Positions 16,322-19,877 of a stretch of DNA of 64,000 bases are shown in pieces. The notes beneath the pieces were generated by a model. The model saw only the letters and a list, made by a program, of their open reading frames with translations, was not told the origin of the DNA and searched no databases. The position numbers and the translations under genes are program-made. The DNA is taken from assembly GCA_011390785.1 (NCBI GenBank), contig JAABRR010000002.1, positions 1 through 64,000 on the forward strand, in the 5' to 3' direction. Positions within the stretch are counted from its first letter, which is position 1. Every line of letters starts with the position of its first letter. The DNA comes from Sphingobacteriia bacterium (GTDB taxonomy: Bacteria > Bacteroidota > Bacteroidia > Bacteroidales > UBA7960).

Positions 16322-17662
16322 TTATTCGTAACGCAGAGATGTTACCGGGTCTTTTTTGGCAGCTTTGCGGGCTGGCATATATCCGAAAATAATCCCAATC
16401 CCGGCAGAAACCATAAAGGATAAAATGACAGACGAAAGAGAAACTATGGTTAATATGTCTGTTAGTTCCATAATAATTTTAGAAAGGGCGATACCCATAA
16501 ATACACCAACGATACCTCCTGTTATGCTTATAAATACGCTTTCTGATAAGAACTGAAAGATTACATCTGTTTTTTTAGCGCCAACAGCCAGTCGTATACC
16601 AATTTCGCGCGTGCGTTCCATTACAGAAGCCAACATAATATTCATAATACCTATACCTCCAACCAATAAAGAGATAGCTGCGATGGCACCCAATACAATG
16701 TTGAAAATATCTTTTGCTCTTTGTTCTTGCTCCAGAAGCAATTCGGGAACGATAACCTCGAAATCTTCTACACCATTATGTCGCCTTAAAATCATTCTTT
16801 GGATAAGATCGGCAGTTGGTGTAAGCATTTCAGAATTCTCAACCTGAACCACAATTCTATCTAATTGATGGTAGCTCTTAGGTTTTTGCGACTCATCTTC
16901 TTCTCCATTAGATGATCTTCTTCCTCTTCTGCCTCTTTGCTGCTGAATGTCGGTAGCAGTTATTGCCGATCTGTCGATAAAACGAAGTAATGCTGTTCTT
17001 ACAGGAATATAAACGATATTTCCAAATTCGCTTATACCGAGTCTTTCGGTTGATTCACCTCCCGTTGTCCGGTCTTCTACTACCCCAATAACTGTTAGCC
17101 AGTTGTTACCCATTTTTAGTTGTTTGCCTATGGGATCGCTATTTCCAAAAAATGAGGCTCTAACCTGATTGCTTATAATGCAGACTGGTGCACCATATTC
17201 TGATTGTTCATTGGTAAAGGCTGTGCCCTGTGAGAATTCTATGCCAAATAAATCAAAATAGCTTGATCCGATTCCGGCAACCCTTATGGTTTTTCTTATA
17301 CCGTTGTTAAACCCAAAAGTATTAACTTCAATTTCAGGGCTGATTTTTTCAATTTGCGGTATCAGTTGTTGTATGCTGTGGGCATCTAGCAAAGAAAGAC
17401 CAGGGGAAAATCGTCCTTCGAGTAACTCTTCATGAGCATCGTCTTCAGCAAAAAGAGGTCTGATAATAATATTGTTCACTCCAACCAGTTTCATCTGATC
17501 GAGAATTTCCTGTCTGGCCCCGTTACCGATTGCAAGCATGGCTATTACTGCACCTACACCAAAAATGATCCCCAGGGCAGTGAGAAGAGAGCGGAATTTA
17601 TTGGCAAAAACCGCATCCATCGCAATATTAATGTTGTATATATACCTTTCTGTTTTTATCAT
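16322..17662 (-). CDS. MacB-like ABC transporter permease (FtsX domain, no ATPase)
   Basis: 446 residues. Residues about 20-245 form a MacB-type periplasmic core after the first helix (KFRSLLTALGIIFGVGAVIA); three C-terminal helices form the FtsX domain (about 325-446, with GIMNIMLASVMERTREIGIR). There is no nucleotide-binding domain, unlike E. coli MacB, so a separate ATPase must supply energy. A low-complexity Arg/Glu-rich insertion (RGRRGRRSSNGEEDESQKPK) lies in the periplasmic part at about 240-260. It starts 9 bp after the HlyD-like adaptor gene, so the two are co-transcribed. Cargo unknown. Confidence 0.85.
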   Translation of the reverse strand: MIKTERYIYNINIAMDAVFANKFRSLLTALGIIFGVGAVIAMLAIGNGARQEILDQMKLVGVNNIIIRPLFAEDDAHEELLEGRFSPGLSLLDAHSIQQLIPQIEKISPEIEVNTFGFNNGIRKTIRVAGIGSSYFDLFGIEFSQGTAFTNEQSEYGAPVCIISNQVRASFFGNSDPIGKQLKMGNNWLTVIGVVEDRTTGGESTERLGISEFGNIVYIPVRTALLRFIDRSAITATDIQQQRGRRGRRSSNGEEDESQKPKSYHQLDRIVVQVENSEMLTPTADLIQRMILRRHNGVEDFEVIVPELLLEQEQRAKDIFNIVLGAIAAISLLVGGIGIMNIMLASVMERTREIGIRLAVGAKKTDVIFQFLSESVFISITGGIVGVFMGIALSKIIMELTDILTIVSLSSVILSFMVSAGIGIIFGYMPARKAAKKDPVTSLRYE

Positions 17663-19006: not shown

Positions 19007-19157
19007 TCTCTAATTTTTCTTTAATCACTGATATTCTTTTAACGTTAAGTATATTTTATGATTGTAGAAGAATATTATTTCAAGAACTCTTTTTAATTTA
19101 AAACGAGCATTTAACAATTTTTTTAAAGGCTGGTGTTTATCGCCTTACTATTTTATT

Positions 19158-19165
19158 TAAATTTG
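19158..19165 (+). promoter_or_regulatory. -7-like element upstream of Cys-repeat protein
   Basis: TAAATTTG matches TAnnTTTG and would give a leader of about 35 nt. The -33 element is not evident. Confidence 0.4.
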
Positions 19166-19206
19166 GTCTAAATAAAAATAAGTATTAATCAAAAAGAAAA
19201 TACCCT

Positions 19207-19752
19207 ATGAAAAAATACATCTTAACATCACTTTTAAGTTTAACTTTTGTTATTGGCCTTAGCTTAGTGCTAACTGCTACTGAAACTGAAAATAAAGAAA
19301 AAGCAAATAATGGTTGCGCCAGCGCTACTCAAACCGCTGAAGTAATTAAATCATCTTCTGATTGTTCATCAACTGCTACTGCTGTTCAAACTGCTGCTAA
19401 ACAATCTGATTGTACATCATCTTCTACAGCCGTTCAAACTGCTTCTGTTGCTTCAGGTTGTGGATCATCTGCCACAGCAGTTCAAACAGCTGCTAAATCT
19501 TCTGATTGTTCTTCATCGGAAACAGCCGTTCAAACTGCATCTGTTTCTTCTGATTGTGGAGATAAATCATCTGAAACTTCAGATGTTCAAATGATCCAAA
19601 CTGCAAATGTATCAGCTGGTTCTTCTTCTTGCATTGGTTCAGCTGGTTCAGCTGCCGATTGCGGAAGTAAAACCAATGAAGTTAAAGCCGAAGGCGAGTG
19701 CACAAAACTTCCTTCAGGAATTTCAACTCAACAAGCCAACAGAAATAAATAA
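19207..19752 (+). CDS. Secreted Ser/Thr/Ala-rich protein with 16-residue Cys repeats
   Basis: 181 residues. Signal peptide about 1-24 (MKKYILTSLLSLTFVIG...). Cys residues sit at 37, 53, 69, 85, 101 and 117, exactly 16 apart, then at 142, 152 and 165. Units 2-5 follow C-[STG]-S-S/T-x-T-A-V-Q-T-A-[AS]-[KV]-x-S-[DG]. Units 2 and 4 end AAK, units 3 and 5 end ASV, so a 32-residue pair was duplicated. No known domain recognised. Possible roles: a disulfide-linked or metal-binding repeat fibre, or a multi-core peptide precursor (speculative; no modifying enzyme is nearby). It has a strong terminator and sits divergent to the exporter pair. Confidence 0.7.
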   Translation: MKKYILTSLLSLTFVIGLSLVLTATETENKEKANNGCASATQTAEVIKSSSDCSSTATAVQTAAKQSDCTSSSTAVQTASVASGCGSSATAVQTAAKSSDCSSSETAVQTASVSSDCGDKSSETSDVQMIQTANVSAGSSSCIGSAGSAADCGSKTNEVKAEGECTKLPSGISTQQANRNK

Positions 19753-19796: not shown

Positions 19797-19829
19797 CCCG
19801 GGTCTGTTTTTTCAGGCCTGGGTTTTTTT
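19797..19829 (+). terminator. Rho-independent terminator of Cys-repeat gene
   Basis: A 10-bp stem with two G-T wobbles (19797-19806 and 19813-19822) around a T6 loop, followed by seven T. Confidence 0.85.
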
Positions 19830-19877
19830 ATAATATTAGGTTGGTCAATTATAAAGCCGCCATTTTCATGGATGTAA

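Follow-up and report, generated by a model that had tools for sequence, protein, structure and literature searches.

A family of cysteine-rich, predicted exported proteins behind a conserved, probably Fur-type operator in one Bacteroidales family

The gene at 19207-19752 of the window (the whole 64,000-nucleotide stretch of DNA analysed here) belongs to an orphan family of cysteine-rich, apparently exported proteins with a conserved Fur-type operator; the family is new, and a function can be proposed for it. Our preferred reading, held with somewhat less than even confidence, is that the product is an exported, disordered polythiol, made under the control of a Fur-family repressor, and would serve as an envelope thiol buffer rather than as a fibre. 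The coding gene, the selection on its cysteines, the predicted disorder of the protein and the operator, together with the sites related to it, were all computed. Actual export, binding of the repressor, the inducing signal and the thiol chemistry are what we infer. What sets this unnamed family apart is that the cysteines and a terminal motif are the sole strongly kept features of the mature protein, and that its genes are wired to an apparent iron/oxidant regulon.

The cysteine-rich protein and its family

The features of the locus are as follows.

19153-19175, + strand: putative 23-bp inverted-repeat operator, TTATTTA-AATTTGGTC-TAAATAA, from sequence comparison
19158-19165, + strand: Bacteroidota -7 element TAnnTTTG (TAAATTTG), inside the operator, from sequence
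19207-19752, + strand: coding sequence of the cysteine-rich protein, 181 aa with 9 Cys, export predicted
19207-19278, + strand: Sec signal peptide, residues 1-24, predicted cleavage after A24
19306-19353 and 19546-19593, + strand: degenerate units flanking the regular array
19354-19545, + strand: four regular 16-residue units (x-S-D/G-C-x4-TAVQTA-AK/SV), repeated in DNA and protein
19693-19719, + strand: C-terminal motif GECTKLPSG (family consensus G[ED]CxKxP[SA]G)
19797-19832, + strand: intrinsic terminator CCCGGGTCTG/CAGGCCTGGG, a 10 bp stem with 7 GC, then T7

In the preliminary description the protein was given a signal peptide and the gene a strong terminator. The first is plausible, A24 being invariant in 16 homologs, and the second is present 3′ of the gene at 19797-19822, with a terminator-like hairpin at the matching place in other carriers. 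The mature chain has 157 residues, is rich in Ser, Ala and Thr, and contains no F, W, Y or H. Its cysteines lie at residues 37, 53, 69, 85, 101 and 117, exactly 16 apart as first described, and at 142, 152 and 165, the regular series thus taking in just six of the nine. In 20,000 shuffles of the mature sequence, a six-cysteine arithmetic progression of any spacing from 3 to 30 was equalled once, and a 48-nt repeat in the DNA matches the period of the protein. Units 2 and 4 (ending AAK), like units 3 and 5 (ending ASV), are identical at 12-13 of 16 amino acids, versus 10 of 16 for most neighbouring units; the suggested duplication of a 32-residue pair is therefore reasonable.

The protein is predicted to be intrinsically disordered. 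In the AlphaFold2 model, built on a shallow 16-row alignment, mean pLDDT was 45 and the signal helix (residues 3-24) was the only ordered part, while values of 33-44 across the repeats gave no ordered repeat fold. Searches of Pfam and NCBIfam with the window protein and 16 family members returned only sub-threshold, composition-driven matches, and no meaningful match to the cysteine-rich protein was found in the PDB, in keeping with the earlier statement that no named family has this pattern. No Rfam element was matched near the gene.

The 19 members all fall within one Bacteroidales family, where the gene occurs in 10 of 11 congeners and in genera g3, g5, g6 and g7; outside this family, no homolog was found in 393 order-level or 395 class-level genomes. 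Where hosts are named, they are uncultured Bacteroidales MAGs; many carry the label CSSed, which belongs to Cock Soda Lake sediments (PMC6704655), and several hosts derive from soda-lake sediments.

Common to the family are the signal peptide, a CC pair near residue 37 (one Cys only in the window protein) and the motif G[ED]CxKxP[SA]G, which is present in 17/19 members and is the best-conserved part of the mature protein. The spacing of the cysteines is not conserved. A period of 16 is found in the window protein and in G022, of 11 in G017 and of 14 in G028; G030 has mixed repeats, and the remaining members have no significant internal period. Moreover, the AVQTA core begins six residues past the Cys in the window protein and four past it in G022, so that the two arrays of 16-residue units probably have separate origins. 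Homologs without the 16-residue spacing had been named beforehand in the preliminary description as what would refute its reading, and most homologs turned out to be of this kind. Because the spacing varies in this way, we regard the period as a product of lineage-specific tandem duplication and not as a functional feature. An exact cysteine period in one genome can thus reflect duplication within a lineage rather than a fold.

By contrast with the spacing, the number and identity of the cysteines are kept, and purifying selection acts on the middle region. Cysteine is retained at 92% of aligned middle positions, compared with 64% for Ala, 65% for Thr and 58% for Ser, where 92% is an upper estimate, as aligners favour Cys-Cys columns and may inflate it slightly. 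Over the same cysteine-rich middle, dN was 0.11-0.37 and dS 0.71-1.67. Members have 6-13 cysteines, an odd number in 13/19, making up 5.7-12.7% of the mature chain (about 6-8% typically, 12.7% in G024). Spacings are mostly 1 or at least 8, and CxC and CxxC motifs are nearly absent. In the divergent member G024, HGHTHTH is inserted between CC pairs, as it might be in a metal binder.

The operator and the genes that share it

A box of the form TTATTTAnnTTT(G/A)GTCTAAATAA lies over the promoter -7 element in 19/19 members, including the genes of both divergent g3 proteins. Across these members variation of the 23-bp operator is confined to three columns, with one member carrying a TTTAGTC variant, and in the alignment of upstream regions TTATTTAnnTTTGGTCTAAATAA and an A-rich tail stay the same from genus to genus, in contrast to the remaining intergenic DNA, which diverges. 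The box is matched once in the window and never in 100 shuffles of it, and no box of the cysteine-gene type was found elsewhere in the fetched neighbourhood loci. TAnnTTTG is the -7 promoter consensus of Bacteroidota, and the conservation of the box reflects in part the promoter and not the operator. Transcription would start at or just downstream of the inverted repeat, and, since the box embeds the -7 element, a repressor bound to it would lie over the promoter.

A related palindrome, TTATTTAGAATnATTCTAAATAA, was counted 14 times in the window's genome versus once for the reversed control, and 15-16 times versus none in G007 and G016. Such sites lie upstream of Fur-family genes in G000 (two), G010 and G011, the last of these assigned by sequence likeness, and also precede genes of aldehyde:ferredoxin oxidoreductase (AOR), of [2Fe-2S] and 4Fe-4S proteins and of a molybdopterin enzyme. 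With a weight matrix made from 46 palindromic sites, some of them preceding Fur-family genes and no cysteine-gene box among them, the window box scored 19.5 bits and ranked first of 63,978 positions, the runner-up reaching 8.2 bits; in members carrying TTATTTATC, the box scored just about 12 bits.

Boxes of the cysteine-gene type precede an exported Fe/Mn superoxide dismutase (SOD) in G011, G016 and G024, an ABC solute-binding protein in G000, G007 and G011, and multihaem cytochromes in G000 and G007. In G011, genes for a two-domain permease and an ATPase come after the solute-binding gene; a ferric-transporter ATPase model is one of several close models for that ATPase, and the transporter may be of the iron type. 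The window's genome has one Fur-family protein nearest to Fur models and another nearest to PerR, both below curated cut-offs.

With sites like the operator upstream of both Fur-family genes and iron/oxidant genes, the operator is most likely of Fur-family type (Fur or PerR), judging from its sequence, and would be bound by such a repressor. The operator sequence does not discriminate between iron, peroxide or another signal. In our model, the repressor would keep the cysteine gene low until iron shortage or oxidants release it, and the protein would then be made together with the exported superoxide dismutase, the iron-type ABC transporter and the multihaem cytochromes. Expression under iron shortage or oxidants would be expected because a Fur-family repressor is the likeliest controller. 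We found no paper on a Fur-controlled, cysteine-rich exported protein and none giving a Fur consensus for Bacteroidota; the sites collected here would outline, for the first time, a Fur-family regulon in this uncultured Bacteroidales family.

Several other loci with the box were observed. The boxed Fe/Mn-SODs (L179:3452-4252, L182:3565-4350, L184:2629-3375) have the GTCTAAATAA half-site in common with the cysteine gene, and each has an N-terminal signal, apparently lipoprotein-like, with CQQ after a hydrophobic stretch. A secreted orphan of ~93 residues stands behind the box in G007, G010, G015 and G016 (L157:2750-3031, L164:3534-3818, L177:11-289, L185:2824-3102), the box being exact in G007 and G010; two members scanned had no Pfam match, and the genes soon after it in G010 and G016 include one for a PsiE-like membrane protein and a pyrG-like one. 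In G018, where no cysteine gene was detected, an exact copy of the box (L166:3494-3640; G018:C128:21993 onward) is followed within ~100 nt by a very stable hairpin (fold z = -5.2) and a T-run, with no ORF, possibly a Fur-family-controlled small RNA. Finally, at L172:3173 (G016) and L173:3628 (G022) a box-like palindrome precedes ~250 nt that are nearly identical and without obvious ORF, possibly a conserved non-coding RNA.

Neighbouring genes and possible roles

In the polythiol model, a small disordered protein would be exported by Sec, with free cysteines and the conserved C-terminal GECxKxPxG as its working parts. Tandem duplication and loss of short units would shift the spacing between species, with cysteine density staying at about 6-8%. 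Outside the inner membrane, this flexible polythiol might act as a thiolate buffer for Fe(II) or soft metals, or it might be oxidised in place of other envelope proteins; the evidence does not separate the metal form from the redox form. We count in favour of the polythiol the OsmC gene just downstream in most congeners and the HGHTHTH of G024. The metal binder among the roles first suggested survives as one form of this reading, although single cysteines 16 apart, without His, would make an unusual high-affinity metal site. A search of the window's complete genome gave no match to the DsbA, VKOR or Thioredoxin_4 families, which makes free thiols plausible there, if weakly supported; most congeners have a weak DsbA-family match, so that disulfides may form across the family.

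More generally, the proteins could stand for a new class of polythiols, ribosomally made, left unmodified, exported and switched by a Fur-family repressor, in which selection acts on thiol number and end motifs while the spacing drifts by unit duplication. Anaerobes of iron-poor, sulfidic and alkaline sediments would thereby have a genetically encoded metallophore with thiol ligands, or a sink for oxidants. We offer this wider proposal as a speculation that is rather doubtful at present.

The same cysteines might instead cross-link exported chains into an envelope mesh, with the repeats as spacers. Such a disulfide-linked structural protein or fibre was the first role suggested, and exported, low-complexity Ser/Thr/Ala-rich repeats with regular cysteines would suit it, as would the weak DsbA-family matches of most congeners. 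However, we consider it unlikely: neither the constant period nor the ordered repeat fold of a fibre or solenoid was found, as the model is disordered and no period is common to the homologs (16, 11, 14 or none), the number of cysteines is variable and often odd, the window's complete genome lacks the three thiol-oxidation families searched, and a structural protein would not usually stand under a stress-type operator.

Polysulfides are unusually stable in soda-lake sediments (PMC6704655), the source of several hosts, and free thiols react with polysulfide; the protein could accordingly carry or trap polysulfide and sulfane sulfur in the envelope of cells living in sulfidic sediment. In some congeners cysN/D/C-like sulfate-assimilation genes, named from sequence, lie just downstream, but this neighbourhood is not conserved, no sulfur-specific enzyme is conserved beside the cysteine gene, and the operator points to iron or oxidants. 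We find this role improbable.

Bufferins and oxazolins are small, cysteine-rich proteins with a Sec signal, sometimes built of repeats, which are tied to metal stress and modified by MNIO enzymes (PMC12452194). A RiPP precursor of this outline, in which each cysteine unit would be a core modified by a dedicated enzyme before Sec export, was among the early suggestions as a multi-core peptide; the protein has the Sec signal and the multiple, repeated cysteine units of such a precursor, and its strongly conserved terminal motif could serve as a recognition sequence. Nevertheless, MNIO (PF05114), whose gene normally lies beside that of the precursor, is absent from all 15 carriers searched. It was matched only in G002, G041 and G047, where no cysteine gene was found, and G002, the only congener with MNIO, is the congener that lacks the gene. 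Neither this nor any other modifying enzyme is conserved beside the cysteine gene in the neighbourhoods compared, and no bufferin family model (DUF2282 or other) in Pfam or NCBIfam matched any of 16 members, leaving the precursor reading with very little probability.

The neighbouring genes were compared across the family. MacA-like, MacB-like and ElbB-like genes are divergent from the cysteine gene in most carriers, and their operon is conserved across the family. The adjacency noted in the preliminary description is real, although the window's MacB-like protein (16322-17662) has MacB_PCD and FtsX domains but no ATPase domain. Downstream of the cysteine gene, most congeners have the OsmC gene and an FlK-like thioesterase; in G010, a different, membrane-like ORF of 169 residues (L027:1864-2373) takes the place of OsmC between the cysteine gene and the thioesterase. 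That the protein is a substrate or partner of the MacA/MacB-like system, exported or sensed by it, is highly improbable despite the divergent adjacency. The operon is equally conserved in g3, g4 and g8, genera in which most or all members lack the cysteine gene; in G024 and G028 the divergent arrangement of the two has been lost; a Sec signal is predicted on the protein itself; and no box of the cysteine-gene type precedes macA in genomes without the gene. Because the operon persists without it, we regard MacA, MacB and ElbB as neighbours rather than as partners or a dedicated exporter.

Comparison with known systems

Like metallothioneins, the family has short chains, predicted to be disordered, with few or no aromatic residues, in which cysteines are probably the functional residues. 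Metallothioneins, however, are cytosolic, with a cysteine content of roughly 20-30% arranged in CxC and CxxC clusters, whereas the present proteins are predicted to be exported, nearly lack such clusters and stay at 5.7-12.7% Cys. Exported copper storage proteins of the Csp1 type likewise carry many cysteine thiols, but these are folded four-helix bundles, unrelated in sequence to the predicted disordered chains described here. Bufferins and oxazolins share the small size, Sec signal, cysteine richness and occasional repeats; they are beta-helical, whereas the present family is predicted to be disordered and lacks the EGKCG motif, the bufferin domain and, in the 15 carriers searched, MNIO. If its thiols are free, the protein would be an envelope thiol buffer that, unlike bufferins, needs no modifying enzyme. 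As in known Fur and PerR regulons, an inverted repeat of the 7-1-7 type lies over promoters, and such sites precede Fur-family genes as well as genes for SOD, Fe-S enzymes and an iron-type ABC transporter, while the half-sites (TCTAAATAA) are unlike the consensus of E. coli Fur and of B. subtilis PerR.
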